Shown one piece after another: positions 24,418 to 62,236 of a stretch of DNA of 64,000 bases (position 1 is the first letter of the stretch; every line of letters begins with the position of its first letter). The notes under the pieces are model-generated. The model did no database searches and had not been told where the DNA came from. It saw nothing but the letters and a program-made list of their open reading frames with translations. The stretch spans positions 904,356 through 968,355 of the forward strand of contig VXAI01000117.1 of assembly GCA_013399305.1 (NCBI GenBank), read 5' to 3'. A program made the position numbers and the translations under genes. This DNA comes from Rostratula benghalensis. Its lineage: Eukaryota > Chordata > Aves > Charadriiformes > Rostratulidae.

Positions 24418-27400
24418 TTAGTGTCCTTTGTAGTGGACATCGGTAGAAATCAGCATGTGTCCCTGCGGGGAGAAGAACAGTCACTGAAATGCTATAAATT
24501 ACAAAAAGAAGGTGGGTTTTTGTTTAGTTGATTTTCCTATTTGGTTTTTGTTTTATTCTGTTTTGGTGGATTTTTTTTTGTTTGTTTTGTTGTTGTTTTT
24601 TCCCCCCAGTTTCAACTCGATCCTGTTGCTAAAGTTCAGAAAAATCTTTGTAAAAGAGCCCCACCTTTCCCTGGCTGCTATCCCTTTGCACCATCTCCAG
24701 CCAACACATAAGAGTTCATCTGAGCCTTGAGGCCACTAGGCAGACATCACAAGGTGGGGTTGTTTTTACCTAATTTGAGCCAGTTAAGAATTAGCCATCT
24801 AATCTCAATTAACCTTTAGGGCTTTCCCCATTGTCAGTGCATAGAGAGCAAGGAACCTGCAGAGAGCAGCCCATCACAGTCTAATATGGTTATCTATCAA
24901 AAGTGGGAGGAATTTCTTACTATCGACCATAGCCAATAGACTGGGACTGGAAGTGTAGATTATAAAAATAGCTTTTAAATTGGAATCCCATTCACTTTGA
25001 CAAGGTATAGCAATTCTCCCGTGTCCCATCTCATTTCTGTTTACTGATGAGGAGACTGATTAGAGAAAGTGAGGTAGGGGAATGGGCCCTTAATTTGTAA
25101 TTAGCCTATAAGATCATTGACCACTGGTGACACTGAAAGCAGTTTCCAGGCATTTGTATTTTGTAGGAACTGCATAGCTGGCTGCTGCCAGGTATATGGA
25201 ATGCAAAGAAAGATTAAAAAAACCATTTGTGCTTATTTCTTGAGTTGTGCATTGTGCTTGATCACAAGCAAGGATTTGAGACTGACCCTGCAGGGCTAAA
25301 AATCACTGAGAAGTTGGTAAATGAGGAGAAATGTAAGCGTCTTACCCATTTTCTGGGCAGTTCATTTGTCAGCACTGTCTTTGTACTGATTGTCTGGCAA
25401 AATTCTGTATGTTCAGTCTAAAGGCTAGAACGTGTTGTGAGAAGCAACAGAATATGGTGTGATTTGGAGAACAACCAGAAGGTGAAGAATATTTTCTGAG
25501 AGCTCACTAACTACTTTTGACCTCAGCCGTTACCACCAATTATTAACAAAATCCAGTCATGCTAGGTGCACAAAACTGAATTCACTCCACTCTCCTATTT
25601 CAACAATTCCTGTTAAATTCAGCAGGACTGTATGGATAGCAATAACTGATTTGATTTAATTGGCCAAAATTGAATGAATTGTTGAGGATAAACCTGGTTT
25701 TGCACTCAATTGCAACTTGAAAGGCTGAACAAGCTGTGCCTTTGATTACTTCATGGTTAGGTGTTTAATGCAAGACTAGCTTTTCCTCTCAAAGAAAGAG
25801 AAATTTGTTCCTAATAGGATTTTACCATTATTACATACCTCAGTTTAAACCCAGAGTGAATGACCTTTTCATGGGAGTGTCAAAATCTCACCTGTACAAG
25901 CGTAATGTGAGGTCTCATCAAGGTAACATTGGCTAGATTGGGAAGAGGGAATCCTTTTGACAGTTTAGCTTAAAAAGAGAGACAAACACAATGATTTTGG
26001 TATGCATTGGAAAGATAATAAATACCTGCCCTTCAACAATCTCCAGAGATTTCTACATCATTTACAAAAATTAACCTCCTGAGTCTTCACAAACAACTCC
26101 GTGAGGCAGATACGATGCCCATTTACTAATGGGGAAAAAGAATTACAGGTGCTTTTCTCTTGGTGGAGTGTTGCAGCCAAACCAAGGCGTTTCATGTTCC
26201 ACATGTTACATACTCAGTGTCCCTGGTGGCCTGGGGGATTGTTAATACAGCTCTGGCATCGTTAGAACCCATTCCCATTTGTCTTCATTCATTAAGGAAG
26301 GTGAAGTTCATCCCAGTAAAGAGGGCTGGCGCAAAGCCATGTTTCCTTCCAGGGCCTTACATAAGATTTATGAGAGGCAAAAGCCCTGTGTGGGTCTCGT
26401 AGAGAGGAATACATTTCACACACGGTGGCCTCAGGCAGGTGGGCAGGCTAGGGAGACATGCTTCTCCCTGATGCACCAGGGCCACCTCGAGCGAGGCAAA
26501 GGCAGGTGAATTATGAGTTTCCTTGTCCTTTTTGCAAAACAGTGCCAATGAGAAGCTACACTCAGATCCCTGTGAATCAATCTTCCCCTTCCACTGCTTA
26601 CTGGCTGATGGTTATTTTCCACTCAAGTTATGAGAACTGGAAACTTAAGCAGAAAGTGAGCAGAAGTTCATAGCATCAGTCCCACTCTGTTGGAAGCTTT
26701 TAGCTTAGAAATACAGCCTTACCGTTAGCTGATGGAATGACTTCAGTCTGTAAAATGTAAGACAGGATGTTCTCCAGAAGTGAGATCTGCCACAGAGAAG
26801 AAAACTGAGTTAGCCATCACTTCCTGATAGTGGTGGAACTGTGGTGCCCTAATCCTAGATGGAATTAGTAGGCTTATGTTCAATTTTTAGCTCTTGTTTG
26901 GCCCAAAAGGGCCATAACATAAAGTGACCTTTGGATCCTAAGTCTTTGGAATAACGCAAAGGAAGCGAGATGCAAGATGCAAATGGCTTTCATCACGCTT
27001 GGACAATGTTTTCATTTAAATCGGTCTGTTTCTTTTATTTGGGAGGTAATTTATCGCCAACAGCAAAGCAGGGCCAGAACAGCCTTAATCCTTTCTCCTC
27101 AGCTACTCAGAACTGATGGATTGTACTCAGGATTAAATGACTCTCTTCGGAGGCAGGGTATTTCCCCTGCAGGGCTACAACCGTGCCATCCCAGGCATCT
27201 GAGACCAGTGGTTCGGCTCCAAATCCCTGCTGTAATTCCGAGCATCTGTGATGAGCACCAGAGCACCACATGGCCTGCCTCTGCCTCACTTGTGCATGTG
27301 ATGGCTTAGGCAGCACACTGCTGCCTCCGGTTAGGCTACAGTTTCCTTGAGCGCTGGGTATTTCACCCTTACGATTCCAGAGGTCTTTCTGCTACTAATG

Positions 27401-30400
27401 AAATGCAATACACCACTCAGGGAATCTACAAAGATTTCATTTTCAGAGCACTAACTTTCCCCAGATAATATACTTTTAGCTCCATGGCAGAGAGGTGGCT
27501 GCCAGAAGACAGGAAAAGAGGCATCCAGGAAGGAAGCCAAATAATTTAGAAATGCAAGTAAGATTTAACAGGTTACTCTTTAGCTTTGATAACCCTGGTA
27601 TTCCCGGTTTGCATTTTGCATGTGCTTAAATTATCCACTTACCTCAAAAAAGCCAACGTTGGAGTGGGCTAGGGAGAATTGGAGCCTGAGGGAAAGAAGT
27701 GAAATAAGATGAATCACTAGAAAGGATAAACACACATTATTCTAGTCACGTGCAGTCACTGCTGTAGAGCTCCAGGCTGTGAGAAACGTCTGTAAAGAGA
27801 TTTTTGAAGCAATATATTTTACACAATGCATACTGCCTCCTAGAGAGAAAGATGTGGCTTGCTTAGAACATTGCAAAAGAGTAAAGCTAGATGGGCCATA
27901 GCCAGCAATCAGAGTATGCTTCTCTCTCTGCGCTGTATTTTGAAAATCCTACTGACAATTGACTTTACCAGGGCTAAGCATCAAGAACTTGCAGGCTCAG
28001 ATATTTTGCAAGGATTTTGGTACATCCGCATAATGGTTTGATATGAGCCTTACTGGACTGGGAAGAAAAATCCTGTTCATTGTATGGCACTGCTGCTGAT
28101 GGCTGTTGCTACTAATGTTTCTGTTTCCAAATTTTCAAATACTTATTCAGTGCATATTCAAGTATCCAAACACACATTCAAAACATCATTTCTGAGTTTC
28201 CACAGAACCAGCATCCTGGCTCTCAGCACACTAGATTTTTCTTTTTGAATCTGCTGCAAAAAAAAATTGTGAACAGTACTGCCTTCCTTAAATTCCTAAC
28301 ATCTCTGTGCCCTGACAAACTCTGCATATTCTTGACCCTATAACGGTCTTCCCAAGGGCCTATTGTGAAATCAAGGTCTCAATTCCCAGCTGTGAGGTCC
28401 TGGTACACAGAGCTTCTTTCTATAAAATGTGTCATGTTAGATGTCTAAATGCTCAAGCCTCTGGTCTCCAGCTTTCTGACCCTTGGGAGCTGCAGTGCCT
28501 TAGGTGAAGAATCTCTGCTGTAAGAGCATCATCGTAGGGGAACTGTAGGGGTCCAGATTCTTTACTCTGTCCCGGACTCCTTTGCACTTTAAAAAAAGTG
28601 CACTAAAAAGTGTCACGGGTGGGGTAGAAAGTAGTTGCATCTTGCCAGCTGGAACGGGGTGAGGGAAGCTCTCACATGATTCACAGTCATCATAATTGCC
28701 CTGCACACTTCATTTACATGGCTCAGAGGGGACAGTAGATATCAGGAGCAGAGAATTCCAATGAGACCCCTGCCCTCCAGCAATCCATAGCTGGTGGATC
28801 CCTTGGGGACTGTGGTGGTTGTCACAGAGAAGTTTCCTGACTCTAAACTTGTGCTTGTACTACGCCATAGAGAATTAGAGAATCTAATGCTTATGAACTC
28901 GCCAGGGAAACACATTTATTAAATTATGGTTATCTGATCATGAGCCTCAACTGCTAATGCTGAGATTGCTAACACTTCCAAATGGCTGGAAACCCTTTCC
29001 ACCCCAGATTGAATTACCTGTTTAAACATAGTGAGCCCACCAATTTCTGGTCAAATATATTCAGAGCAATGCTGGTGTTGGCTGCCTGCAGAAGAAAAAA
29101 AACATGGGTTACCAGACACAAAAACACAGGACCCTTGCTCTGAATTAGTCCCAAATACAAAAATACCATCTTCCCAGTTATGTAGGGAAGCTGTTTCCTG
29201 TAGATGCAACTTTCTCCCTAGCCTGTGGCCCATGCAAGGCTGCATACAGTAGATGTCTGTGCGTCTGAATGGCACTGACATTGGAGCTGAAATGAGTTTT
29301 CACTCAGGGTAATGAGGTTTCACTAATCACAGACATTTTCAGTTAAATGAACAAGTTGCCAAGAGACATGACTCATGCCTGCAAGACTGTCATTCCAGGG
29401 AATAAAACTTTGGTTAATTAGAGTTAATTTTTGGACTTTTGTCCATCTATAGGAAAAAATTCTTTGTCATAGAAATATCCTATAGATTAAGTGGGACCAC
29501 TTAAACACCACCTGTCATTAAGGGGAATTTGCATGTTTAAGTACTATAAATCTGGTATTTTGGGGTTGGGTTTTTGTTTTTTTTTTTTTTTTTTTTTTTT
29601 TTACAGTTTTAACAGAAGGAAGGAACAAACATATTTAACCCTGAGTTAAATGTCACCTCTTTTTCATTGTACTTACTATGTTCATAGTGAACAACAGCTG
29701 GGTGGTTGAGTCTGGCAGAACAGCAAACACCTCCATGGAGCCCTGAATTTCTACCGTGAAGGAATCCTGCTCTAAGCTGATGACAGGTATTTCAGTAGCC
29801 ATTAGCTTCAACATCACTGGGTAGGGTGTAACTGAATATTTAGCTACCTGTAAGGTTCCGAGACAACAAAAACAAATAAGACAGAAAAATGCTTTTCTTG
29901 TAGAACAGATCAGAATACTACATTTTCTCATTCTCAAAGTGTTTTGAAGTTCTTTAAGAGGAGGGTAAAGACAATTGCTAACATAAGATTCTTTCAGGCA
30001 AGCAGGAGGTAGCAGTTTTCTGTGGTGATAAACAGTCTTGGCCACATTAGGAATGGAGTGGAAAGTTCTTTCCACGCTAGGAATATGATTTCTTCTGAAT
30101 CACTTTGAGAGAAATTAAATACTTGTTTATGAACACATGAATAGAACAGGAATGTGACATTTAGGTCACACAAAAGAGCTCAGGAGTCATTCAGCTGGAG
30201 ATTCCCCCATCTCATGGGATAGGTTCCTGCTCTGAACTGTCCTCAGAGGAGCCTCACTCTGGCCATTGCCCAAATAGTGAGTAGGTTCACCAAGCTTATT
30301 ACTTAAAACAGAGGGAATGGAATACTAGCATCAACACTTGTGGCATTTTATGGAGAAGACCATGTGATGACTGCCCTTGGAGCATTCTTAGATTACTGAG

Positions 30401-33400
30401 GAAGGAACTTAATACCACCTGGGAAGCAAACAGGGATGTGAAATTCTTCGAACCATGATTTAATCCATCACTGGCATTCATAGCCTAGGGTCTCTGACGC
30501 TTGTTTTCAGTTCCTCACTCTGTCTGAGCCAGTGGAAGCTATGCATGCTTATATTCTCTCTCTGTTATATTCATCTCCTCCACCTAAAATAAATTGAAAT
30601 CCTGTGCACCTGCCTTGTCTGTTCCATAGATGTAATGCTTCCTGCCCATCTGTTAGCTTGGTTTCCTGCATGTGGCCACTACAGCCCCTTCTCAGATCTT
30701 TACTGAATTCCTTTCTGCTGGACAGTCACAGGTGAGCAGTGAAGCAAATACAACTACACAGGCTTTGGGCAGGAGAAAGGAGTTATTATTTCTGAGATGA
30801 AGCCTTCTCAGAAGGCCCTCAAAGCAGGACTCATGACTGGAAGCTTTTTCCTGCCTAGACCTGGCTTTAGGTGGGAACAGCTGTGGCTTTTGTCACAATG
30901 CCCAGAGTAAAGATGGATGTGCAACATTATGGGCCAACTTTGTTAACAGTGCAAGTCATCCAATTCGTGGGTGTGGGAGGTGAAAAGGCCCATCTGCTCT
31001 GCTGTTATGAGGCATACGTGTGCCAGCTTCTCCAGCACAGGAGCCCTGGTTACCCTACAAGCCTTTGGGATACCCCAGTAGTGAGGTGTCTGACACCCAC
31101 ACTGGGTGGTTTCCCAAGAGTTTGTAGAAGTAATGATACTCACCTCAGGAATGATGCTGCCAAATATCTCTGTGCTTATATTAAAATAGCTGCAAGTCTG
31201 GAGGAGAAGTAAAAAAAAATAAAAGAAGCTTACCAGATTTGACCTTCATGGTTGGCTTTGGTTAAATGCATTATTACTCTCATTTCAATGATTTTTTGAT
31301 TCTGTGTCTTTTGTTCTTTGAAATATTCTTAAAGGACTAAGTATACTTAAAGCTGATTTCCAGTAATATACCAAAATACTTCCTGGGAAAGCAAATGCTT
31401 AATATCGTCATAGTTTGGGCTGCAACTGATACATTTTGGGACTTACTGAACCTCCTGGAGACAGGCTAGCCAAGTCTGCCAAATCCAAGTCAAGCCAATC
31501 CAAAGCTACTGGGCTTTGACATATGCTTGTCTTCCATGCCCCCTGTAGTACTTACAGTCTGTGAAGACTCTTCAGAAAACAGCCACTGAGGCTGCTAAAT
31601 TCCACAGAGTAGATCCTTTGTCTGCACCAGAAAGCTCTATGCCTCAGGTCTACCAAACACACCCACCCCTTTTTTTTTTTTCCCCCATAGAAAAGTTGTC
31701 AGTATTTGGTACCTTGCTCAGTGGAACTTGGCACCCCGGCTGTGGCCTGAGGCACCTCCATAGAGCATAAAATAAAAGCATAACGATACCCTGCTATTTA
31801 TTATCTGCTGTCTCAGGACTTTGCAAGCCAATTGGCAGCTTTAATACGGCCACATACTGACAACTGGCAGGTCAAAGGCCCATCTTTGGTGACCTGAGCC
31901 ACTCTGACCCCATTCCTTCTGTGTCCTACTCACCTCTTCTGCAATGGTGATGTTGAAGGCCCCTGCGGTGTAATAAGCAAAAGAGGAGGTCTGAAAGATA
32001 TGCTCGGAGAAGGCAAGGTGGAGCATGGAGTCACTTTGGTCTGGGATAGTGAAGGGAGCTGCCACACAGGTAGAGCCAGTATAGTTTCCAGCTGGATAGA
32101 CTATACCCTGAAAGGTATTGGCAGAGACAAGAAAAACAAACAGACAAACAAACAAAACAACAAACCACAATCAAAATAGGACTTTAATGTGACTGCAGAC
32201 AACTAATGTGTCTTCCCTTTCCCTTGGTCAGGCCATTCATTTGGTGTATAACTGAGCAAATAGGCTTTGTAGTACACACTGAAGCTTTAGTGCTTTCAAG
32301 CAAGTGGTGAAGACAAGTTCCAGAGATTGGACACCTTCACAGATCACACCTGAGATCTATCTTTTGAGATGTTGATCATGTACTGAAGACAGTCTACCAC
32401 CTCTGAAAATAAAGCCTCTAAATGTAGGGTCTATGTACTGCATGAAGAGGATGACTAAGGCTCCTCCTGATACAAAAGGCTTATTTTTTTGCTTTCCCCA
32501 TCTCCAGGAATTTAAATCTGCTGCCTAGAGAAATCCAGTGGTCTCAATTACAAAAAAGGATCTCTAAAATCAGAGGTCTTTCTAGGTAAAAATCAGCACC
32601 TTATTCTGCCCAGAAGCAAGTGGAAAACTTGTGCAGAGAAAAGAATGCCTATGAGAAAAAGAAAAGTTATGTCTGACAATCCTAAAAACACCTATGTTGT
32701 CTTTTTCACTGCCCATGATATTAGCTAAGGCTTCCAGATGTAATACTTCCAAATGCAACCAGATGAAAACAAAAAGGTAAAACTGATTCAAAATGAGGGA
32801 GGAACTCAGAGGCTAAGATTTTTTGTACCCTTTTTATTAGTTCCCCCTTTCTGTTTAATCTCAAATATATTCTGTGTCTTTTATTTTCTCAACTCCTCCC
32901 CATCTCTCTCTAAATTTTGTGTTGCTCTTTTAAAGACTAGCAAAACACTGACAAAGTGCCAAGTCACTTTGCCCATGACACCCCCTCCTCCCGCTTTCAG
33001 TCCTCGCTGGATTTAACACTCACTTTGCATTTTTCCCCCATGTTGCATCTTCTGTGGGAGAATAGCTCCTGTAAACAGCTGTGATGCTACCTCTTTCATC
33101 TACCTCAAGCCCCTGCTTAAAATCTAATTGCTACAATACCCAGAAGAGCCTGACAGCAGCTGCAGAGCTGGTGGGCCGAGACCAGTATCTCCCATACTGA
33201 TGGATACCAGCTTTTTGTTCCTTTGTGTTCCCACCTCTTCCCTCCCTGTTGTCTCTTGTTAATACTTTAAGCTTTTTGTGACAAGACTGTCTTTTCGTTC
33301 TCCCTTTGTAGAGCACCTAGTGCAAGGAATCTTAAACTTAATTAAGGATCTTGGTTACTCCAATGAGGATAACTGCCCTCAACCAGAAACCATCTTACGC

Positions 33401-36400
33401 AGAATGACAATCAAGTCATGCTAGAATTAGGAGCTAGTCTGGTTTTAGTTTCAATACGTAAGGAGATTTTTTTTTTCCTTTATTTGAAAGAACCTTTCAG
33501 GTCTTCAAACTCAGCAACACTCATTGGGTTCCCATGCTTTTTTCAAGGGTCTTCTGCCTTCCCTTTCAAGGTGCCAGAGGCTTAATTCTTGTTCCTATAG
33601 GCTTGCTTTTTTCTTTTCCTCTCTCATCTGACAGCAGATGCGTTTAGTTAGTACAAAGTGTAGGAATCTTCCCCTGACTGACCGAACAAAGAAGCTGCAG
33701 ATATTTTTTTCTTCTAACTTGCTTAGTCAACTTTTACTGCTCTCTATGTGCTATAATCAACTCAACAGCATTTATAAAAAAAGGATGTGGCTTTTGACTA
33801 ATTCATTTGTTGTAACAACATACGAAGTGTTGTAACAGGATAATAATTCATGTTGTAACAGGATTGTTAAAAATTATTACAATAACAAATGCAATAGTGC
33901 TTTGAAATGTCTAGATTCTCAGATACTGAGTCTTAATGCTCAGAACAGCAAGCGGTCATTTTCAAAAACAGCATACAAAAATAAAAACCATACTAATCTT
34001 GGCAAATGGAACTGTTGGCAATTACCTTTAAATCCAAGTCAATGAACTGTCGGAATACCGCTGGCAAGCTATTTAAGGAGTAGTCTACTTCAGCCAAATT
34101 GTCAATCGGCATTGGGACTGTAAGGGTGGTAGATAAGGCAAAATACCCAATATTACAAAAAGCACAGAGAGATTTTTATGTATACGTAAAATTCGAAGTC
34201 AGTTCCTGAAGGGACACAAGATGTCCCGAAGAGTAGGGAAAACACAACCAGGGACCTCCTTAACATGCATTTTGATATAAGGCCTGATGTTTCTGCTGGA
34301 GCATTCTTTATTTTGTCCAGTGTTTTCTCATAGTGGAAAAGTAAATTTGATCCAACTAAAAAAAACCCCCAAAATATAAAAAAATTGGCCATACCAGTGC
34401 TTCAGGGCGTAAGGTGGTGTTGGAGGTGGTGGGATTTCTTGTCAACCAGTTCTGAGAGCATCCAGAGTGCATCCTCTGACTTACAAATACTTTCCCAGTG
34501 TGGTGGGTGCCTGATCTGCTTACATACTTGTGTTTTGCACATGGTGTGTTACCAACACTGTGGGGTATCTTAAACGCCCACATATCTAACCCAAAATGGT
34601 TAAAATGAGAAGCTTTTTATTTACAAAGGAGCTTTTTCATTTTGCCTTCGGCAAGTCTGATAAATAGGCAAGTGAAACTTCAATTTCCAGGCAGGCTAGG
34701 AGAGCAGGCTTCTGCTGGTCAAATGCTCTGGGTGCAGGAGGGCTCAGAGCACAGGAAGGAAGGGAAAACTGCCTTAGCATCGCTGCTGTGGCCTTTAGAG
34801 ACCTTTGTGTCTCTAACAACAGAAGTGCATGCTGCGATACTTGCAAGTTGAAAATAGCTCCCAAGTCCTTTGCTTCTCATAAATATAATTTTCTTGTCCA
34901 AGTACAACTCTCTTTATTTAACTGTGGTCCTGTAAGCAAGGGAGCAGACAGATCAGGGGGTCTGTTGCCACTCCTGGAGACTTTGCTGCACAGCTGCTGC
35001 TATGGAAGCTGCAGAATTTCACCGAACAGGAAGGGGAAGACAGAGGAAAAAAATATCACTAGTGACTCACAATTCAGTGATCGGAGGTCTTCATCTAGCA
35101 AGTGGATCCCAGATCTGATGTTGGGACATGACTGTATAAAAGCACATTCAAATTATGGCTTGATTAGTGGCTAGATTGTAAGCAACTCTCACCTGTGTGC
35201 TAGCAAATATGTCTGCTTATGTGACACACATTGCAGCATTTGTCAAAACACCTAAATTAGTTCTTCAACTAACTGGTTCCCCAAGGTTCCAATTTGGTGC
35301 AATGTAAGCGTGTCCTATGTCAGAACTGCTTTTAGGCAACAAAGCGAGAAGTTGCCAAAGGCAGCCTGGTGGGGGTGACAAAACCACAGCCTTAAATAGC
35401 ACAAGGAGAGAGATATCTCATGTTGGTCTCACAGGGAGATCCGTGGGCGGAATCAGAGCCATCTCAATCTCTGTCTCCTCTCTGAGGCCCTGGGCAGGTT
35501 GTCATTAGAACTACGCACCTCTTTGATATGATGAAATTTAAAGATGTCATTCTGTCAGGGTATGCACCACAACTTCTCTGTTCATCACCCAATATATGTT
35601 TCCTCTGCCAAGTATGAAAATTAACCAGACCCCAAAAAGCCTGTAGGCAGAGACTTATTCTGCATTGGAATGAGAAAATTGCTACATTTTCTGGCCTTGG
35701 TTGAACTGTGGACTAGTCAATATCTTGGCCATGAAGTTGGCACTTTATCTGGAAGCATCTCTGGCTGACAAAATGGTGACTGTGTTGATCAGACTGGAAC
35801 TATACTATTTTTTCTAGGTCTTCCTTTGCCAAGTTCACAGCACTGACATGTGAAAGTCATATTCCTTAAACCCCTCCCATACACAATTTGAAAGGCTTAC
35901 ATTAGTGACCAAGCTCCTGTGAATGGGTTTCTTCAGATACTTGATGAAGAAGTTATGCAGGAAACTAGAGGAAAGGAAGAAAGCAATTAGTGGGTGAAGC
36001 ACTGCAATCAGGTAATCAGATATCTCCAAAGAAAATTAATGTCCTCTGAGTATGATATTCTAGCACACAAGGGAGCTTTCTGAAATGTAACAGCTATCAG
36101 AGAGCCACAATTTAAAAGGAAATAATTTCACCACATGGCATCTTAGCAAGTAGTCTGGGTAGATTCATCTTTATGAATAAGGAAGTCTTCATATTACCAC
36201 CATCATGTATGTATAAACACAGAATAAATTAAATAATTAGTCTCTGCACTAGGAACTTCCAACACAAGTAAAAAAACCCAACCAAACAAAAAAACCAAAC
36301 CTAAAAACAGATGACAAGAGTTGTATTCAGAGAGTGAGAGAAGAACACAAGAACTATGAAATAACATTGCACAGGGTCACAACCAGAGGCAGAACAGACA

Positions 36401-38828: not shown

Positions 38829-38900
38829 CTTCCTTGCTTTTTTACAGGACCTGTTAATAATTATTTATAATAATAAAAGAAGTTCATGCTATGTCACATG
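38829..38900 (-). promoter_or_regulatory. Possible gene A core promoter or 5' splice acceptor
   Basis: Just upstream of the start codon, the minus strand has TATAAATA (38,862-38,869) followed by TTATTAACAG. The first could be a TATA box placed very close to the ATG. The second could be a 3' splice site joining an upstream untranslated exon. The two readings conflict and cannot be resolved here. Confidence 0.3.
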
Positions 38901-40960: not shown

Positions 40961-41004
40961 GACAACTGCCTCTCCCCTAATGGACAACTGCCTCTCCCCT
41001 AATG
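40961..41004. repeat. 22-bp perfect tandem duplication
   Basis: Two identical adjacent copies of the unit beginning gacaactgcctctcccct. This is a small recent replication-slippage event in intergenic DNA. Confidence 0.9.
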
Positions 41005-41974
41005 CCTGAAAATTTATTTTGATATTGCTGCCTCTTTCACTAGCCTTTTCAATATCAGAGGTAATAATATATCTCAAACCTCTAAAATATTTTCAGTCCT
41101 GACCACAATTTAAACAAAATGCAAAATTATGAAATAACATTCACTTAGCTTTTATGTAACAGACAGCCTTAAGTAATCCCACAGAACACCTTTGCCTTTA
41201 AGTACAAGTAATATTTTCTTTTCAATTTTAACTGACAGAAATTGAGAGGTGGAAGAAAGACAATTCACGAGTGGAACGAAACCAAACTCCAAACTACTAG
41301 AAGGGAATGTGTCTTTGACATAGGCATAGTTCTCATACCTTAAAATTCTAATAATTTAATCACATTTAGCTACACCTATCCCCGTCCCAGCAAAGCCACT
41401 CTACAACAAAGAATAATCACAAAGTATTTGCTACCATACCTCTCCTCCGAGGCTGAAGAGAAGACCCTTGCTGTACCAGACCACAGGGCTGAGGATGCTG
41501 CAGGGAAAACCCTCTGCAGCCGTGTCTTTTAAAGGAAAGAGCTGTGAGCTTGGAGAGAGCCAATTGCTGCCATCTTCAGCGGTATCATGCAGGGAGTGGC
41601 CTCTCCGGTAATCATGTCCCAAATTATTTTGGGTGTCCCAGGTTAAATCTATCACTTTAATTTCATTTAGGGACTATGCAAAGGGCAGCATAAACTGTTG
41701 GGTGGGGGTGCTCAGGCACTGGGGTGCTGTGCTCGGGGTGACATGCTGCCTTTCTGGCACTCTGTTTTGGTGCTGACTTTTCAGATGGACCTGGGAGGAA
41801 ACCCCCATTGAGACTCTCTTTCAGCAGTTCCACAGGACTGATATTCATAGCCAGGTCTGCATTGTGAAGGAAATGAATGCATGGGCCACTGCTAGGAAGG
41901 ACAGATGCAAAACAACTGTCTAGGCCCATCTGTTCTGAAATTGTTCAGGATACAGAAAACCGTAAATTATATAG

Positions 41975-42048
41975 TATTTATAGTATATATATACATACGC
42001 ACTATAGTGCATATATATATATATGGCAAATATATATATATATATCTC
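41975..42048. repeat. AT microsatellite with central palindrome
   Basis: Alternating TA arrays flank the perfect 12-base palindrome gcactatagtgc (41,999-42,010). Such sequence can extrude as a cruciform and is often length-variable. Confidence 0.85.
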
Positions 42049-45930: not shown

Positions 45931-46350
45931 GGTAATTAATTGGATTTTATAAATCTGTTCCCACTATTGGTATACAGTTACAAAGGGAAAGGGAAAATTC
46001 TTATGAATACTAAGGTCTTACTCCATTCACAAAGTTTTGCTAACACTAATGAAGATAATTTGAATTATGCAAGAACTGGTTCCTAAAATTAGTAAAACAT
46101 GGTGTCTATAACTCTACTTAAAAGAACCTCATCAGGCTGCAATAAGTTTTGTAAAGCATCAGTAACACTGATTATATATTCACCGTATTAAAATCAGACT
46201 TAGTATGTGGAAAGTGATAAAGAGGTTTTACTAAACCATTAAAAATAATGATGAAAAGCCATGTCTCTAATGTTATAGCATCCACTCTCTACAAGCCAAC
46301 AGAAGGAAGACTACATATTTCTTTAATTATTGTTCAAAAGTAAAAGGTCA

Positions 46351-49300: not shown

Positions 49301-52300
49301 CCTATTTTTTACTCCCCTTTTTATCTTTGTGTTTTGTGTTGTGTTTGAAGTGAACCAAGATAATTCCCAAAACTGAGCTTAAGCCTGACATTGCATTCCC
49401 TCCAACTGCTACACCAACTCAATCCAGCTGTGAATTCAGGCTGGCTGTCAGAAATGGCTAGAAGAGGTGTTTGGCCCATGCTTGCCTTTGTGCTGCTGAA
49501 TACAGAAGTGAGCAGACTCAGCTATGACAACTTGCTAGGTCATGCAGACCCAGGTACACATTTCTCTTTGTTTGAAATAATGTTACATACTAAGAACTCC
49601 ATAACATTTGGAGCCTCTGACAAGAAAAAAAACCCCAATACTCCAAGAGGTATTTCTTCTTACTTGAAAGAAAAAGAAAAGCAGAGAATATACTACTTCA
49701 AAGCAGAAAGAGAAGTGGCAGGTGATATCCCCAAGACAGACCAAGAATTGTCCAGCAACAAATTCTGATGATTTTTTTTTTATCTCTGAAGGGCTCAGCT
49801 ACCTTTCCTAGGCACTGAAACTATCAATTTACCTCAGAGAGGCCAAGAGTTGGGTGCAGCAGGGAGAACTGGAGCCTGAGAAAAAGAGGTAAAAGAAGAG
49901 GATTCACTAGAACAGATTAAGGCTCAAGTTATGCATACTGCTTCAAGATTCATTTATGGAATTTTGTACTGATACAATGATGAATCACACATTTAACTTT
50001 CCCAAAGACTCTTTGATTCCCAACAGCTTTCAATCAGAACTGGCATGACTACAAATGAGTTCTAGAATCACTGGTATCTTTCTGATACTAATCTACTCCT
50101 GCACTCATGTGTTGTCCTGGGCTGTGACTCTAACACTTAGGAAATCAGATTTTTCTGTATTGCCATTTTCCGTGTAGCTAAACTATGCATTCCTAAAATG
50201 TTCATTATTATTTGAATAAACTCATATCCATTCCTAACCATTTTGATTTCCTAACTGTTTCCATTGATGCCTGAAATGCATTCTCAGATCACTGTAAATA
50301 TACTGTGAGGGAAAACCAACATTTTGAAGAACAGAAGAACACATTCTTGTGTCAAAAGCTCTAAGCAAGTGGCATCATTACTTCTTAAACTTTGGCTGAC
50401 ACTGTGGCTCTGATCACTCTAAACTGGCTCTGAAGAGTCTAAGTCCTCTCTTCCTGTTAAAAAGGGCCAGTGACCAAAACTAAGAAAAGGCTGCTCGCAT
50501 TTTTCTTTACTGCAAATATAATAGGTTAAAAAAATATCATATATTCTAGAATTCTGCCCCAACTTGGAGTATAGCGCTGATAAGAAGAAACACTGATGTG
50601 AGCTACTTGTGCAAAAGTTTGTGCTTCTACTCACTTGGTGCACTTAGGGAGGGAGGCTGTCAACCCAGCCCGCTTGGTGTGAATAAAATTTGTTCTAAGA
50701 CATCTGAGAACACCTGTAGCTGTAGATAACCACAAAACCAGCAAGATCTAAGCAAAATCTAAAAAGCTTTGAGCTTTGCTTCAAACTACAGACACCTTTC
50801 TAGTCTCATTTGTTTGATGGCATGGTGTCTGTGGTTGCAGTATGCGCTATGGTAGTCTCACTTTTCCTCTTTCCCTCATGTGAAGCCATACAAAGGGCTA
50901 GTTGGAGTGGTCCAGTGCAGTGCTTGCACTCTGCCAGTTTTGTTTATGATGCTGAGACATGGAATGTCAGGAACATTTAGAGGGTTTCAAATTAACTATT
51001 AAACTTCATTCTTCAGCATCAGCACACGATGAAACAGATGCCTTTAAGATAACCAGTAAGTTGAACACTGTCATCTGGAAAGGTATTTAACCTACAGAAA
51101 GAGGGAGTACCACTTTGCACAAGAGACATGGTTATTCCACAGTTTTACTCTATTTATAATATTAATCATTACTATTCAATATTATCATTCAATATTACTA
51201 AATATGACTAATTTCTGCAAGATTTAGAGCAACCAGTCAAAAGTATCTTAGAGCCCTGTGAGAATGAAGGTAACTAATTTTCTTTTTCTTATGATGAAAC
51301 AGGCACTGTCAGGCTGACACAATGAAGTTCTGTTGTGTCCTAATGTTGGGACCGTTAATGTTGCTTTCTGAATTTTCCTTGGTTACCTCTTCAGAAGTAA
51401 TGAGATAATCAACTTCTGTTTGGTTATTGTCAAATTGGCTCTGGTACTGGCTGTCTGCAGGGAAAAAAACAAAACAGTCTTCTGTGACTGTATACACAGA
51501 CAGATACTGTGTTAGATACAGGCACAAATGCAATTGCTTTTGTGATTGGAAACACAATGTCTAAAATTTTTATTTGGTCAATACACGTAGATAGTGTGAA
51601 TTTGCTGCTTTCTGTCAGCAACTGAGATTGCATGAGTGAAGTGGTAACACTAGCCAAATTGCCTCTTACCATTAGGATCATTTAAGTCCTTGCACGGCTG
51701 ACATAATAGGTTCCCTTTCAGCCTAATGAAAAGATGTCTGGGGACACACTGTACTATTTTATAACAAACAACTTAGAAGGTTGGGCATCAGATCATCACG
51801 GTTTTATATATTGCAATTTTTTCTTCAATTAGCACTCAACCTCCCACATGGAGAAAAAAAAGGGCTTTCATAAGTAGCACTCTTCACATGCCTATTAAGT
51901 TCTACAATGTGATTCATGTTTCCTCCCTGTGAAACAGGAACAGAACATTATGCATATTTGTGGCAGACCAGTATATGCTATTTTATATCAATATCTATGA
52001 TTTTCAAAGGATCTGGAAGATTACTGTGTGATTTGTTCAGCCTCAGCACGGAATGTTATCTTCTAGCTCATGTTACTCACGAGATTCCCTGTGAAGACAT
52101 AGTGGGCGCTTGAATTTGGCAGAAGAGCAAACACTTCTACAGAGCCAGTGGTCTGGAGGATGCATCTGTCTGCGTTTAAACTGACCGCAGGTGGTGATGT
52201 AGCCATCAGCTTCAGCAGCACTGGGCACGCCGTTCCGTTACTCGGAGCAACCTGTGGAATTTCAAAGAGGTAAAAAAACACACTCAATGAATAGTTAAGC

Positions 52301-55300
52301 TTTTATTAAGCTACAGTTTCTGTGTCTGCGTTGTAAACAGGTGCTATAAGCCAACCCTCTTGTTAATTAGTCTATATTAAAAATACTTTGTTTTAATTAT
52401 ACCAACTGAAATGACGTAATTAGCATAGCATATACTCTGAATTTCAGAGACCATAAAACAATTACAAAGTTTTACGGTTTTACACTCACTGATATTGAAC
52501 ATATATAAAGAAATAATTTAAAGGTTGTTCCTGAAAAAAGCTATTTCAAAAGGAGGGGATTAGCACTGCATCTTAAAGAGGTGAGGGAAATGAGTGATTC
52601 CAGTAAAAAAAAATAATTAACAACCCTGACAATATAAAGAATTTGGAAAAGAGGCAGACTGACAAAAGAGCCAATCTTCTGAAAAATAGAGAGACTCTTA
52701 GAGGACAAAATTTTAGTTTGCAATGCCACAGATTCCAACTTTCATAATTTATAGTAATTATTTACAAAATAGATTTATAATGATTGTCATATTAGGAATT
52801 TTTAAAGCACCTCATAGTATCCTAATTCCTTGCATCATGTTTATAAACATAGCTAATCATGACTATTACTTCCCATTGTGTATAATCTCTGGTGGTCATA
52901 AATCAGGTATCTTTGCATAGAAAAGTCCTGCTACCAATAGCAGAGATACCATTACCTTGAATGGGAATAAAAGGAGACTGATCTCACAGATGTTTACCAC
53001 TTAGTCACTTTAACTGTTTCAGAGACTGAGAGCAAATCTAGAACTTAGAGGGGTAAAGAACAACTGAAGAGTAGAGTGATATGAATAGGAAAAACATAGA
53101 TTTATGATGGGATAGACACCTATGTTTGAATCTTGCACTAATCATAAATCACCTCAGTTTCTCTGTCAACTCCGAACTATTGCAAAAGAGCTAGTACGCA
53201 GATATCTAATATCCATAAGAAACATTAGCTGCTGCTCTTTCTTAAATGGTCTGTGTAAGTAAAAGTACCCACCTCAGGAACAAAAACTTTGCATAGGGTG
53301 GTGTTTAGGTTGAAAGCAGTAGCAAGCTGTAAACAAATAAAATAAATTAGATCCTTATATCAGCTGGAAAATTAGGTTTTCCTTGGGGGAAACCCCCCCA
53401 TCCTGTTTACTTTAGTTTTAGAAAATCCATGTTTTGATTTAGTATTTCCTTGCCCCAGAATGATTCCTAGTGAACCCACAGTACTCTATGGGACACAAGA
53501 GAGACAGATTTCTTGTGGATGTGTTTTAGAAGCACGTACCAGCGAACAAGCATTATACCTGAAAGAATAAATATTGCATCCCACTTTCTTCCTGGCTTTG
53601 GGACTTTCTTACATGAAATATACTGTCAAGGGCAGGACCCCAAAATCTTGTTTGCCTTTTTGCTGCTAACCACTGTGATAATCTTTGTCAGTGCCATTTG
53701 TGTCACTGATTTTTATAAAGACCTGTTTAGCAATACTTCTTGGAAACTCTGACTTCTAACGCCAGCATGGAAACATAATTTCTGAAAGTAGTCTTGTATG
53801 TTCCTCACCCACAGCTGAAACCTTAGTCTTCTTGTACCTGCTTCTTGCCTTGTTTTGACGCTCTGTTGAGCCTGAGGGTTTGTTTTAGCTCTCAATACAG
53901 CCAATACATTTGTTGTGGTCCTCTATGCAGCAGATTGTGAATTCAGTACACTTTTTTCCTGTCTTGGCCTTTCCTTTCCCATGTGGAATCCATGCAGAGA
54001 AAAGGGGGTTTGGGTTCTTTCTGCCACTCCTTGCACATCAAGTTCATATCTGTCATTCCCTGCCCAGAGCTGCCAAGAAGTTCAGACTTAGGTTTGAGAG
54101 AGACTTTGACTATTTTAAATGATGACATACAGAATGAATGTCAAGGATCCCTCCTACAGATGGCAGAATTGTGACCCAAATCTGTGTGAAATGGTGAACA
54201 TAACATTAGTCTCCTTTGCTGGCTACTCATACTGCTGATATTTGTAATTCTATTACATGTAAATTATGCTCACCTCTTCAGAGACGGTGATGTTAAAGGC
54301 CCCTGCTCTGTAGTATGCCAGTGAAGCGGACTTCAGAAAATAGCTGGAGACTCCCAGGTATAGCATGGAATCACCCTGGTCTGGGAGGGCAAATGGAGCT
54401 GGCACAAAGGGAGGGTCTGAGTGGTTTCCTACTGGATAGACTGTGCCCTGCAAAGAGTCATTATCAAGTATTTCTAGTTGTAAACATTAGTATCTTTCAG
54501 AAGGCATTAGCAGTGGTTGAAAATTCTTCCTAACATGAAGAAAAGCTTGACATTGAAGAAAACCTGAAGTAAGCAAATAAGTTTGTGATATGCCCTGAAA
54601 ATCAGCAAATTGGAAAAATGCAGGAATCATGGAGAAAATTTGGCCTCCATCCTTTCAAGGTTTGAACTGGAGCATTCAAATGAGTATTCTGAACAGTAGC
54701 TATGAGACACACACAAAAAAAATCATCTGGACCACATTTTTCTTTCTCTTGTGGCAATGACACATTAGTTAATTTAATTCTAAGGGTGACATTTAAGGAA
54801 CATCTTCACGCACATCCCAGAAGCACTGGAAGTCGCTTAGGACAGAGACGTAAATGAGCTTTTTATATCACTGAACTCTTAGCCCTGGTCCAGCTGCCAG
54901 TCCTCTAAGATCTGGTTTGGGTGCTGCAGAGGTGTGTGACCTTGATTCAGTTTATACTAAGAAATTAATGCCTAAAATGTGAGAAGGTATGTGAGTTCAG
55001 TCCACGTAAGATAAGAAAAGTAAAAACAGACAATAAGTACTGTAATTACTGACACTGTAACAATTAGTAGCTGAGAGATTCAACAGGGAAAATGCTGACA
55101 TGGAAAGGTATAAAACCCTAAGAAAAAACTTGAGAGTTGGAAGAAAGCCAGCTGTATCCTGGGCTGCATCAAAAGAAGGGTGGCAGCAGGTCGAGGGAGG
55201 TGATTCTGCTTCTCAGTGCTTGTGAAACCACCACCTGGAGTACTGCATCCAGCTCTGGAGTGCTCAGCACAGGAAGGAATGAGTCTGCTGGAATGGGTCC

Positions 55301-58300
55301 AGAGGAGGGCCACAAAAGTCATCAGGGGGCTGGAGCAGCTCTCCTATAATGGATGACAGGCTGAGAGAGTTCAGGCTGTTCAGCCTAGAGAGGAGAAGGC
55401 TCTGGGGAGACCTTCCTGCAGCCTTTCAGTACTTAATGTGGGCCTACATGAAAGATGTATACAAACTTTTTAGCAGGGCCTGGTGAGATAGGACAATAGG
55501 AGTAATGGTCTGAAACTAAAAAAAAGGGTAAATTTAGACTAGATACAAAGAAGAACTTTTTTACAATGAGGGTGGTGAAACACTGGAACAGGTTGCACAG
55601 AGAGGCTGTAGATGCCCCATCCCTGGAAATATTCAAGGTCAGGTTGGACAGGGCTCTGAGCAACCTAGTCCAGTTAAAGACATCCCTGCTCATTGCAGGG
55701 GAGGGGTTGGACTAGATGATCTTTAAAGGTACCTTCCAACCCAAACTATTTTGTCTTTCTATGATTCCAATTCATAATCACCAAGAATAAGCCTGTTCCA
55801 AGGAGCACTGAGGACCAGTAACTCCCTTAACTGATTAATAACTGACTTAGAAAGCCTCATCCAGTATCCCATTGGGGTGTCAGAACATTAAAGCTTAGCC
55901 TGTAAGATCTATTTAGCTATACTAGGTGATAAATAATTACTTACAACTCCTGTATATTATGTATATCCTGCTTGCAGAGTGGGTTTTTTTTTTGGCTGGT
56001 AAAACTTCCTTGAACAAAATAACCAAGGAGAGTTTCAGCCGTAGCTCTAGCACACCTTTCTTAACCAAAGTCAGTTCTGAGAGCAACAGGGATGCTCTGA
56101 ATTACAAGGACTGTTGAAGCTGCTGGAATAGCTGGGCGTTACTGAGATATCTCTTGCCACCAAAGGTGAAAAACAGATAAGAAAGGAACTGCCGTGTGTT
56201 GCTCAAGGACTGTCTTTTTTTGGGTGTGACCTATACATATACAAGATGCCGAGTCATCTCAAAACAAATACTTTGGATTGCAATCACATTGGTAGCCGTC
56301 ATTATGTATCACCAGCAACAGACAAACACCAAGCAGCAGTGGAAGAGGTATATATCTAAAGAACACTTTAATGCTGATAAATAATGGCTTTGATTAATTA
56401 ACAAATGCAGTTAATCTATGAAACAAACAATCATATCCAGTTTCCAAAATAGCTCTTGCCCCAATTTCTTACTGTTTTTCTAATTAAATATTGGAGAGAC
56501 TAAATAAGACTGTAGGGAAAGAAAATGAATCAACACAAAAGAGAATCAGAAAAGTCTTAGAAAGCACACTGATATTAAAGATAAATTACCTTCAAATCCA
56601 GGTTAATGTGCGATTTGAAGACTGCTGGAGAACTAACTAGGGAGTAGTCTATTTGTGCAAAGGCATCAATCTGGCTTAAGACTAGAAAAATGGTGGACAA
56701 AAACAAAACAGCCATTATTACAAAAACATATCACAAACAGTTATGGTTTAGTTAAAGGCAAAGGCATTATAGAAATGATGAATTTGGAGAAAAATACTAG
56801 TGAGAGAAGGAAGAAGAAAATGAAAAAAACTTTTTATAAGGGGAAACGTGAGTCCTCCCTCCAAAAGCGGAACAGATTCCTCCCATTTTAGGCCTTGCTC
56901 TCCTGTTAGTCACAACTGAATACACTCCTTACAAATCTCTCCTATGCAGTGAGATGGGTATCTGCAGCGGAGTCCTCTTTTTTGTTATATATTTCCCAAG
57001 AGCTAAACCTTCCTATATGATTAGTGAAACACTGGTAAATACTATAAAATACTTTGGAAGGTGATATTAGCACAGTTTTATGCATCAGTGTTGCAGGCAA
57101 AGGATGTTTGTTCACAACAATAGAGAGAGTTTTATCACACAATGTGATTGAAGATTTTTTCTGAAAGGTGCTTGCATGCGACTTCAGTTTGATTGTTATT
57201 TTTGATTGGACCGTGAGGTCTCTTCAGATTGCATAAATAACCACATGTTTTTAAAGAGAAATGGTGAATTCACACAGAGATTATGAAATACTCAATATGA
57301 CAGCACAGGCTGGAGTGCCCTCGAGCCTGCCTGAAGTGTTTAGGTATGTGCTGCATAAGCAAATGTTATTGATGACCATGATTTTCAGTAATATTTGCCA
57401 GCACTTGGCACACAGTGGGTATAGGCCATGTTAGGGAAAAAAACCCCAAGCCCAAAAAGCTGCTTACTCTGCTTCCTAATAGCAGAGCAAATCATGGAAA
57501 TACCCATAATGCAAAGTGAGGAGTGGGAACAAACTCTCTGACCTGAATTATATGACTTGGGGAAATTAAATGAATTTGACTTGGTGAAAACTGCAAATAA
57601 TCTTAGTTTGGGGAAAAAAACCCACAACAAACAAACAACAAAACCCCATGGGATTGATTATAGTAGCTAAAATCTTACATTTATATACTTTTTTGACAAA
57701 TATATCTACTGTCTTCATGCCTCTGTACGGGTGACACAGTAATTGTTACTGGTGTGAAGAGAAACATGCCTAGTGTGACAGTGTCTTCCTGCAGCATCTT
57801 GTTATCTCACTGAACTCAAGTTCAAAACAAGATGTGCTAAGTTTACATGATCTTATAGGACCACAGTGCAGCATGGTGTGTTTGGTAGGTCTTTAGTGGA
57901 TTACTGCTAACTCATGTTTTCTTCTGTCCACAGTACCAAGAGCATTAAGGACCAGCATGAAAATGTTCATCTCGAAAATCTAAGGAAACAACACAGGTCA
58001 GCTACAACAGACTGATAGATTACAGTTGACTTGCAGAAGAAGAAATCAGAATATTGTATATAAGGTGTTATGCATGAGATTTCTAGGGTGGTGTATGGAA
58101 CAGGTTAAAGTACAGAACAATGAACGTATTTTTCTTCCTTCATTTTTTTGTACTGTGAACACAGAAATGGTTTGGCACCTAATAAAAAAGGCTACAAATT
58201 GAGCACCGTGAAGATTACTTAACATAAATCTGGTATCAACAACTCACCCTGATGCTTTCTAAGCTGTGCATCCATCATTTGGATTTTGTATTTGATATTG

Positions 58301-61300
58301 AGGCACAGCTACATGAAAAGAGATACAAGTCAGTAATGTAAGGCCTGTATTTCAACTCCTTTCACTAGCAGAAACCATCTTTGCAAACTTACATTTTTAT
58401 CCAATTCAGTTTGAATGGGCTCCTCAATATAACCAGACAGAAAGCTGTAGATCCAGCTGGAGGAAAGGAAATGAACACACTGACTTTTTACCATGGATTA
58501 AAATCTTTGAAGTATAAAATCTGTCAGACTGGGACATCAATGTAATTTATATTAAAATGAAAAGCAATTACAGTGATACTGGTAGACTGAGCAGCTGACT
58601 GTTTTTATTAATTACAGAAAATCAAATGAGGAGAACTCCAAACATTGTTTCATAGTCTCTTTTGAAAGCTTTATTTTTAAATTGCAGGTCAGCTTGTCTA
58701 GACTTTCTTCATATCTGCAAACCTTCATTTGCAATCTTGTACTCTTTAACATGCTTAAATGGCAATTTTTTTCATATGCAGTATGTCTAGTCAGCTTATT
58801 TGCTGGCACATGCACGAAGACCTGTAGATTAACCACACGTGACACACTTAGCAAAGAAGCCTGATTTTGAAAACAGACCTTCAAAACTCTATTTCCATAG
58901 CCTTCAGTAGTTAGTCGTAATAGGTAACTGGATCCCTAAAAATCAAAATTTGAACAGTGGCCCTTATGCTACAAACCCTGCTATGTCCCACAAAGTAATT
59001 AGAAAATGTACCTACCTAGATCCTCCATCTAATTTGACTTTTACATTATTAATGCTCAGCTGGCAATTGTGTAGCAACACAGACAAGTGGCCTGTGCTGT
59101 CCCGTGACATTTTGAAGACAACTGTGATAAACAGTCCTGAGATGGACACAGTAATTCTTCCTTGGTCTTTGCTGCTCAAACAAAAAAACACAACTCAGAA
59201 CTCAGTCAAGGAAACATCTGCTTTAAGCGAACAATTTAAGAAGGTACCTGTAAATCAAGTTTGAAAGGACTTCTTGCTTCTATCATCTAGAATGATGAAT
59301 GGGTTTTCTAGGGATTAAAGTAGATTAGGGACATGCATGGTATTCAAAGACAGGGTATACCCATGAGTTTCCAGGACATTAATTTTTCCACTGTTATGCA
59401 GGATTTGACAAGTTTGCAAAAATGTCACAATTTCACAGCAACACAAGACATTTCAGTCCTTCGTGACAGATCATGCTGAAGGCCTCTGGGACTGCAGAAG
59501 CCAATTAATTTATAAATATACAACCCAGTGTTTCTCAATTTTGCAATTGTTCTTTTCTGTAAGAATTTTCAAGAAGCCTTTTTTTGGTCTCCATTTTTTT
59601 GCCTGCTCCAAACCCATTCATTCTCCTATCTGTAAAAATTCCACTAAGACCCCAACAAAAATATCCTTACACGTAAATTCCAGCAAATTTAGGTATTAAG
59701 ACTACAGTTAGCAGTTGTAGAAGCTGTAGACCAACCAAGCAGGATACAGAGAGCTGAATGGATGTTAGAATAGCCTTATAAAAACCTCATTTACCATAAT
59801 GGAACTGGCTCTTAAAGTATAACTTTTCACCCCTTTATCCTGATTACTCAGGTTTTATTTTCCTAGGTGTTACTACAGTGGCTGCAGCATACTATGGAGA
59901 AAGAGCCCAGCACAATATGAAACTCCAAATGTAAGTCTTTCTCCTTTCCTTTGCATTTTTCAGGCTAAGCAAAAATCCTGTGGAAAGCAGTTTTAATCCC
60001 AAAAGATTAATCTTAACCAAACCCCAAACCATAAACTACTCCTGACCAAACCAGTAAGTAGTACTGCAAGACAAAAGTCTCTCCTACCACCACTACCATT
60101 TTAAAACTCAACTTTCAATTGGTACATGTGCATTAGGTGGCTATCTGGAGGAAGCATCACTCTTCAGACCCTCATTTTCCAGTCCCTGCCCAACCCCCCA
60201 TCCCGCAAGCTATTAGGAAAAACATTTTCCCAAGTAGGATTTGGAAGCATGGGGACGGGTACTTGGAGAGGTTGTGGCAACACCATCTTTGGCTAAACAA
60301 CCCCAACAGACAGCTGACCTGATCTAATCTGGTGATTGCTCTGTGTTGAACAAAAGGCTGGACAAAATGACTTCCAGAGATCCTTCCAACCTGGGTTTAC
60401 CTATCCATCAGTGACAGGGACCATTGCAAAAGGACCTCAGCCCTCTTCCTCCTTTTTGGACTGCTTGGGAAATAGCAAGAAGCCCAGCTCCTTAGGTGTT
60501 CTGTTCCCACATCCATATATCTGCTCTTCTTCAGGAGGAATCCTGATTCACTGAGACAGGGTCTAAGCTCCGTGCCTCTAAGGGCAAAAGGCCTGCAAGA
60601 GATTTTGTGACTTGCAGAGTGCTCTGTGACACAGTGGAGAGGAGGGCTATAATGAGAGCTGGAAATGCAGGGGTAACAGTATCACAATTAAAAAGCTATG
60701 GTAAGATCCATCTTACTGACCCTGGAAAGAGTCTGGGAGGGATGGGTGGTCAATGGTCTCTCTTGAAAAGCTCATTTTCAGCTGGTCCCTCTTAGTCTGC
60801 TATGCTGAAAGCAACACGTAGAACCAGAGAATGGAGGAGATGAAGACTAGGGCATGTTCTGGATCTGCCTAAACCTACACCTATTCACAAAACATCGCAT
60901 CGAACAGAGCAGTGCAGGTTGTTCCTGCTGCCCCTCAAAAAGACACAAAAGACCCTTCACCCCCTAAACTCCACCAAAGCTGGCTTTTACTACCTCCACC
61001 ACAATCTGCTCCACCAAATCCTGCATACCAGCTCCTTGCCTCCCTTGCTGTCCAAGAAGTCTTTGGAGTCTTGCACATCTAGAGTGTCTCCAGATTATTC
61101 CCTAGGTCCTTATCCTCCGGCATGAGGGAGAGGTGGCTTTGTGTGTGGGAACAGCTGATTTGCCTTGCTGAACACAGTACCCTTTTCCTCATAACACTGG
61201 TACAACAGAAGGAGCAACAGACGGGTTGGGGGCACAGTGACAGCAGTTTCCTGCCAACAATACTAAAATTAAATGCAGAATTTCATTCCCATGCTCCTTT

Positions 61301-62236
61301 GAAGTTACGACATACCGTGAAACTTGCGGCCTGGTGATCCATCTTGCTGTACTATCTGGCTCGCAAAAAGAGAGCAACACCTACCACTGCTACCAGTTAC
61401 TCCATTTTGCAGTAAACTACATTGTAGAGATTAGCACTGTGCAAACTTTGCAGATATGCCAGAAGTTTTAGCCCTCTCCCTGCCCCAAGAAAATCTAGAA
61501 TATTATATTAAAATTCTATAGCAAAAATAGTGAGATAAAAAAGTGAAAACATCAGTATGTAATCTCATCATGAAAGAAAATCTCATACTGCACATGCTTG
61601 TAAGTTTTTCCATAGTGACCCAAATTCTGGAGTTTCCAAAGTTCTGAATATTTGGAATTGTGACAGTGCCCTTCTTTTAACAGGAGCACTTTGGAAGACA
61701 ATACACATTGTACCAGCAAATAGGAAATTAGCTATGGAGCAATCGTTTCAGTTATACTGTACAAAGAAAGTAGCAAATGTATTCATTGCAAACTCTGTGG
61801 TCCTGAATATTCATGTAATACCATGTAATGCACAGTCTGGATAAACTGAGAATGTTGGCAGATGTCTGACCTGATACCTCCCAAAGAGACACCGTGTGGG
61901 GTAGAATAATTAAAAAAAAAAAAAAAAAAAAGTATTATTTGGCAGTGGATGTTGTTTCCTTCTTAAGAAGTTTATTCAAATAGATTGCTGCTAAACGATA
62001 AAGCATATCTGACCTGAAAAATAATTACTAACTGGATTCCTGAATTTCATTGCAATTCTTCTCCCAAAACTGTCCCCAACACCTGCATCACACTGTACAG
62101 TACTTACAGCAACCATGTGTTCATTCGCCAGTCTGCATTGATCGTACCAGAAGCACGTGCCACTGACACACTAATGCCAGTGCCAGGAATGAAGGAAGCA
62201 GAAGTTTCTGGGAAATCTACATCATTAATTCTGAGC
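46351..62236 (-). CDS. BPIFC: BPI-fold family C protein (gene B), exons 3-15, 5' end not in window
   Basis: Second tandem BPI/LBP/PLUNC-family gene, same strand as gene A. Exons found: 62236-62108, 59171-59016, 58456-58393, 58308-58248, 56681-56590, 54447-54274, 53326-53273, 52251-52081, 51454-51387, 49875-49833, 48779-48716, 47032-46956, 46428-46351 (stop TAA). These 1,231 bases encode 409 residues plus one split codon, open throughout, with GT-AG introns. Family marks are FIPGTGI, the paired cysteines in HNCQL and [14 protein letters not shown], the exon 8 signature [25 protein letters not shown] and [10 protein letters not shown]. The exon 8 and SLVSSP stretches resemble mammalian BPIFC more than gene A does, so I give the symbol tentatively; gene A is the competing candidate. 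The tail is extended and acidic ([14 protein letters not shown]). Signal-peptide exons 1 and 2 were not found up to position 64,000 and presumably lie beyond it. Confidence 0.9.
47355..47965 (-). mobile_element. CR1 LINE 3' fragment in gene B intron 13
   Basis: The sequence opens with 'tatcacagaatgatatggga', the reverse complement of the CR1 3' end, and continues through typical CR1 3' sequence ('ccagttccagtgctctgctg', 'ttcctcttgtcctgttactg', 'ctcgacctgctggtcacact'). It is in the same orientation as the host genes. Confidence 0.9.
55100..55775 (+). mobile_element. CR1 LINE 3' fragment in gene B intron 7
   Basis: Contains 'atcctgggctgcatcaaaag', 'gagtactgcatccagctctgg', 'ggctgttcagcctagagagg' and the tail 'gggttggactagatgatctt' then 'tatgattcc'. 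These are in correct CR1 order. It is antisense to the host gene. Confidence 0.93.
60255..60412 (+). mobile_element. CR1 LINE 3'-terminal fragment in gene B intron 3
   Basis: A degenerate tail: 'tacttggagaggttgtggca', later 'ctgacctgatctaatctggtga', and 'ggctggacaaaatgacttcc' followed by 'agatccttccaacctgg'. It is older and more diverged than the copy at 55 kb. Confidence 0.7.
61914..61931. repeat. Poly-A tract in gene B intron 3
   Basis: About 18 A on the plus strand after 'gaataatt'. Simple sequence only. Confidence 0.8.

Follow-up and report, generated by a model that had tools for sequence, protein, structure and literature searches.

Two BPIFC genes beside RTCB in Rostratula benghalensis and a lower bound on the age of their duplication

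A stretch of 64,000 nucleotides from the bird Rostratula benghalensis (contig VXAI01000117.1 of assembly GCA_013399305.1, positions 904,356 to 968,355; the whole stretch is called the window here) carries two genes of the BPI/LBP/PLUNC family, A and B, head to tail beside RTCB. They very probably represent the sauropsid BPIFC pair, with A orthologous to chicken BPIL2a and B to BPIL2b (BPIFCB), issued from a duplication that preceded the separation of birds and crocodilians and of which both products were kept. The encoded proteins would be secreted two-domain glycoproteins with a BPI fold, most likely holding lipids. A sequence-only reading of the locus had proposed an old duplication with both copies retained. 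This is supported by the protein tree, by a ratio of nonsynonymous to synonymous divergence (dN/dS) of about 0.35 between the copies and by reverse transcription PCR (RT-PCR) of both genes in chicken (PMC3253384). The gene pair is in substance already published in that 2011 paper, and the addition made here is a lower bound on the age of the duplication. No dating of this duplication was found in the literature on BPIFC, BPIL2 or BPIFCB of birds, chicken and reptiles, a search whose coverage left out most subscription papers.

Structure and identity of the two genes

The genes were located with a chain search of both strands in three phases for the twelve lengths proposed for exons 3 to 14. 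An open frame was required and splice sites were scored with approximate textbook frequencies. The two best chains do not overlap, belong to the minus strand and score +112.1 and +108.5 bits, far above the next-best chain reported (-10.7 bits). All twelve lengths, from 129 to 77 bases, are recovered in both genes, and AG and GT border every one of these exons. On the minus strand the order is gene A, gene B, RTCB, with gene B adjoining RTCB and approximately 7.5 kb between the stop codon of A and the start codon of B. The interval 24418..62236 extends from the end of the gene B stop codon to the start of gene A exon 3.

Exons 3 to 14 of gene A occupy 62236..46956 in plus-strand numbering: exon 3 at 62108..62236 (129 bases), exon 4 at 59016..59171 (156 bases), exon 5 at 58393..58456 (64 bases), exon 6 at 58248..58308 (61 bases), exon 7 at 56590..56681 (92 bases), exon 8 at 54274..54447 (174 bases), exon 9 at 53273..53326 (54 bases), exon 10 at 52081..52251 (171 bases), exon 11 at 51387..51454 (68 bases), exon 12 at 49833..49875 (43 bases), exon 13 at 48716..48779 (64 bases) and exon 14 at 46956..47032 (77 bases). 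Those of gene B occupy 38133..25892 and have the same lengths in the same order: 38005..38133, 36764..36919, 35901..35964, 35071..35131, 34026..34117, 31934..32107, 31144..31197, 29677..29847, 29018..29085, 27643..27685, 26723..26786 and 25892..25968. Beyond these twelve, the last coding exon with its stop codon was found in both genes (46351..46428 in A, 24418..24462 in B), as were the first two exons of gene B. Exon 1 of gene B (coding part 38723..38828) includes the start codon and a hydrophobic N-terminus that resembles a signal peptide, as read by eye without a predictor, and exon 2 (38255..38366) has 112 bases. Gene B is therefore complete and encodes 471 amino acids. Full-length A-type proteins from Apteryx and Numenius match exons 1 and 2 of gene B and match nothing above position 62247 beyond chance (E 4.4 or worse), which indicates that the window ends within gene A. 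Thus the proposal of two intact-looking genes head to tail beside RTCB holds for their arrangement, for RTCB and for gene B, while gene A lacks its 5' end in the window.

Every exon from 3 to 14 had also been described as having the same length in both copies. This is true if downstream AG acceptors are used. Gene A has tandem acceptors at exon 4 (GAGCAG) and exon 13 (CAGCAG), and the upstream AG would give 159 and 67 bases instead of 156 and 64. The additional residue of exon 4 is present in the A-type proteins of Numenius, Apteryx and Callipepla. For exon 13, the tree includes 13 public bird A proteins, and 11 of them showed the pattern searched for. By eye, six (Rhea, Falco, Apteryx, Numenius, Nothoprocta and Lepidothrix) carry the additional residue and four (Phoenicopterus, Columba, Heliangelus and Coturnix) lack it, Dryobates being ambiguous. 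Both residues are absent from the two crocodilian A proteins. That all twelve lengths are exactly equal is thus one possible reading. Equal lengths had been taken as a sign of an old duplication, which is not borne out. Table 3 of PMC3253384 lists BPI exons of 129, 156, 64, 64, 92, 177, 60, 168, 68, 43, 64 and 77 bases and gives similar sizes for PLTP and a chicken BPI/LBP gene. Both window genes show these family sizes (64, 61, 92 ... 68, 43, 64, 77). Such a match is a trait of the whole BPI/LBP/PLUNC family and therefore says nothing about the age of a duplication.

Both proteins contain the N- and C-terminal LBP_BPI_CETP domains (Pfam PF01273 and PF02886), with scores that exceed the curated cut-off. 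The N-terminal match of A begins at profile position 48, a consequence of its missing exons 1 and 2. Protein B matches the solved structures of BPI (1bp1, E 3.5e-60) and LBP (4m4d, E 7.5e-56) over nearly its full length, which settles the BPI fold, and CETP weakly (E 2.0e-06). A protein search with B listed 117 matches, the top rows being bird BPIFC or BPIFC-like proteins with 80-90% identity for complete models, and 73-76% for some shorter or low-quality ones. The search with A listed 93, of which the best is Numenius arquata (91%). Rows covering A fully mostly show 73-91% identity, with three lower models (67, 67 and 60%). Such matches would by themselves place the source among neoavian birds, probably close to shorebirds. 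A search with platypus BPIFC gave 165 proteins, and the best 120 of them are nearly all mammalian. The low protein identity noted between the two copies was confirmed, at 45.6% (175 of 384 gap-free codons).

This value is close to the 46% published for chicken BPIL2a and BPIL2b, which stand in a 2:1 relation to human BPIL2 (BPIFC) and have exon sizes almost identical to each other (PMC3253384). According to the same source, the sizes of all twelve exons in chicken BPIL2a and of eleven of the twelve in BPIL2b are those found here. Published chicken primers were used to connect the two pairs, BPIL-2R1 being taken as BPIL2a and BPIL-2R2 as BPIL2b. The BPIL-2R1 forward primer matches exon 8 of gene A (19/20), both BPIL-2R2 primers match gene B (17/20 and 17/20) and so do the BPIFCB primers (18/20 for the forward one, in exon 5, and 16/20). 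Gene A is thereby assigned to the BPIL2a type and gene B to the BPIL2b/BPIFCB type.

RTCB starts at about 22646, downstream of gene B and on the same strand. Its first 34 codons were read at 22545..22646 (the donor site is not fixed) and match a PDB entry (E 4.6e-16); four stretches together reach E 4.2e-64. The pair therefore occupies the locus beside RTCB that characterizes the BPIFC subfamily, and mammalian BPIFC lies in the same place, judging from the human gene order. A G/A-rich repeat (22781-22857) is located just 5' of the RTCB start, in an apparent GC-rich promoter, and a 47-base unit in two copies, 96% alike, occurs at 7501-7601, downstream of or inside RTCB. Further away, about 26 copies of TTCT (2021-2124) form a microsatellite that abuts 256 consecutive N (2125-2380), which presumably mark a gap left in the assembly because of the repeat. 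Intron 13 of gene A includes a translated stretch (47448-47621) that we take to resemble the end of an avian CR1 retroposon reading frame. Searches of the window with tblastn and five BPIFC proteins revealed no third copy or pseudogene fragment: matches fall on exons of A and B or are scattered with E > 0.1. An open reading frame at 26923-27309 had no match in a PDB search or a plasmid search, and no match to an Rfam family within the window attained the gathering score.

Age of the duplication

A first maximum likelihood tree of 52 rows was built from 49 of 244 fetched proteins, selected for completeness and species spread, together with both window proteins and human BPI; LBP, PLTP, CETP and PLUNC rows were left out. 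A second tree of 28 rows comprises 27 of these and the tortoise fragment P0102. Clades were compared by the p value of the approximately unbiased test (p-AU), with two tests on the 52-row set and eight on the 28-row set. The p values of these tests are weakened by the fact that several of the groups were defined once the first tree was known. The 47 amniote BPIFC rows group together (99/99), with BPI, shark and frog relatives outside. Mammalian BPIFC, to which each mammal in the tree contributes a single gene, belongs to the same family as the sauropsid genes and groups with them. In the 52-row tree, crocodilian A joins bird A (100/100) and alligator B joins bird B (99/98), and both bird clades include ratites and fowl or waterfowl. 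Neither copy therefore appears as a recent lineage-specific pseudogene. Trees uniting the crocodilian copies in one clade are rejected (p-AU 8e-91, 52 rows), as are those uniting the bird copies (p-AU 4.6e-05, 28 rows). Since both types occur in birds and crocodilians and the single-clade topologies are rejected, the duplication predates the split between these lineages, which took place roughly 250 million years ago.

The duplication may be older still, having occurred before the turtle-archosaur split or before amniotes diversified, with turtles, squamates and mammals left with one copy each. This possibility deserves serious consideration, although we find it the less probable one. In both trees turtle BPIFC groups with B (95/88 with 52 rows, 91/84 with 28 rows), which would imply the older date and an A copy lost or unsampled in turtles. 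However, placing turtles outside A and B is not rejected with 52 rows (p-AU 0.232) and barely rejected with 28 (p-AU 0.048). On the 28 rows, neither mammals with A (p-AU 0.147) or with B and turtles (0.284), nor squamates with A (0.393) or with B and turtles (0.241), are rejected. The same is true of mammals outside all sauropsids (0.429) and of squamates and mammals both outside A, B and turtles (0.225). These tests are compatible with mammalian BPIFC being orthologous to either copy or to both, and for turtles, squamates and mammals alike the data allow either order of events. No A-type turtle protein is present among the matches listed for the A and B searches. P0102 was considered as the missing turtle A-type protein and rejected: it joins Terrapene (98/93) in the turtle group, with a long end branch (0.27). 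A recent tandem duplication in the bird lineage, or decay of one copy into a pseudogene, is highly improbable: the short head-to-tail spacing and the first exons of A lying outside the window would suit such a reading, but the rejected single-clade trees, the low identity between A and B, the thirteen open exons of gene A with canonical borders and the A-type proteins found across birds argue against it.

The arrangement of the pair in other species was surveyed by eye from the rows of the protein searches with A and B, by equal sizes of the longest contigs of cluster representatives and not by coordinates. Eleven species have both types and a contig size given. The A and B rows share the same longest-contig size in ten of them (Dryobates, Merops, Rhea, Apteryx, Colius, Columba, Aegotheles, Porphyrio, Callipepla and Alligator) and have different sizes in Podargus. 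In Merops both types are on a 51 kb contig, and in Callipepla a 792 kb contig carries both, with locus tags that differ by two. These two cases probably agree with a close linkage of A and B.

Several observations weigh against an ancient, orthologous and jointly retained pair. The start codon and exons 1 and 2 of gene A are outside the window, so that its 5' end is unproven. The branching within the bird B clade is unlike the species tree, with ratites inside it alongside waterfowl and pheasant, and the tree tool gave a long-branch warning for frog, BPI, shark and one lizard. In the comparison with chicken, one exon of BPIL2b is listed as 89 bases where gene B has 92 (exon 7; PMC3253384), and the window contains no match to the reverse primer of BPIL-2R1 (at best 13/20). 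In the 2006 chicken assembly, BPIL2a (49.97 Mb) and BPIL2b (55.31 Mb) are 5.3 Mb apart on chromosome 1, in contrast to the few kilobases observed here; this separation could be due either to a rearrangement in chicken or to an assembly error. The evidence for transcription is from chicken and not from this bird. Finally, the Nei-Gojobori comparison of A and B over 384 gap-free codons (dS 1.27, dN 0.45, ratio 0.35; mismatches of 0.404, 0.305 and 0.497 at codon positions 1, 2 and 3) averages both branches with dS near saturation, and therefore indicates overall constraint rather than constraint on each copy. A stronger argument for retention is that both genes have kept open frames since before the crocodilian split and are conserved across birds.

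Protein properties and probable function

Both proteins resemble secreted glycoproteins that bind lipids, and are devoid of the strong positive charge of BPI. They share with BPI and LBP the two-domain organization and a pair of N-domain cysteines at equivalent spacing (39 residues in either protein against 40 in BPI), which presumably form the disulphide bond of BPI. They differ from BPI in being slightly acidic and in carrying N-glycosylation sequons, 7 in A and 8 in B, whereas the human BPI stretch compared has none. The net charge is -2.3 for A (exons 3 to 15) and -4.2 for mature B, against +14.9 for the BPI stretch. For the N-domain it is +1.0 in A, where the first part is missing, and +6.2 in B, against +16.2. 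Neither protein has the strongly cationic N-domain of BPI-type antibacterial proteins.

Consequently, lipid binding or transfer would be favoured over killing of the BPI type, given charges far below that of BPI. The pair could in principle consist of BPI-like antibacterial proteins binding lipopolysaccharide through a cationic N-terminal domain. Membership of the BPI/LBP/PLUNC family and the residual basicity of the N-domain of B are compatible with this, and BPIFCB of the chicken eggshell matrix has been counted among the antimicrobial proteins by analogy with its family (PMC4534581). Nevertheless, the charge deficit in both proteins makes such an activity rather unlikely.

Lipid-holding proteins of the BPI fold would most likely accommodate their ligands in the two barrel pockets. 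They may act at epithelial, reproductive-tract and egg surfaces, where they would sequester or transfer host or microbial lipids, possibly in defence, and both copies may persist because they are expressed differently. In chicken, RT-PCR detected transcripts of both genes with distinct patterns, each highest in the reproductive tract (PMC3253384), so that absence of transcripts from one copy is not the case in that species. Besides its presence in chicken eggshell, BPIFCB has a homologue in crocodile eggshell (PMC9363672), is among the genes altered in diet-restricted roosters (PMC11232191) and appears together with RTCB and SYN3 in a gene list from a chicken genome-wide association study (PMC12193209). 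Human BPIFC has been reported in the epidermis, and in connection with hair-follicle cysts in one family (PMC6565563).

Tentatively, and with still less confidence than for an older duplication as such, two BPIFC genes may already have stood beside RTCB in the turtle-archosaur or all-amniote ancestor, birds and crocodilians having kept both and the other lineages one each, possibly different ones. Under this scenario, both copies were perhaps maintained in birds and crocodilians for roles in the egg tract and at the egg surface. If it is correct, mammalian BPIFC and reptile BPIFC need not be one-to-one orthologues. In birds and crocodilians the label BPIFC covers two non-equivalent genes, a distinction that matters when findings on human skin and hair follicles are carried over to them.

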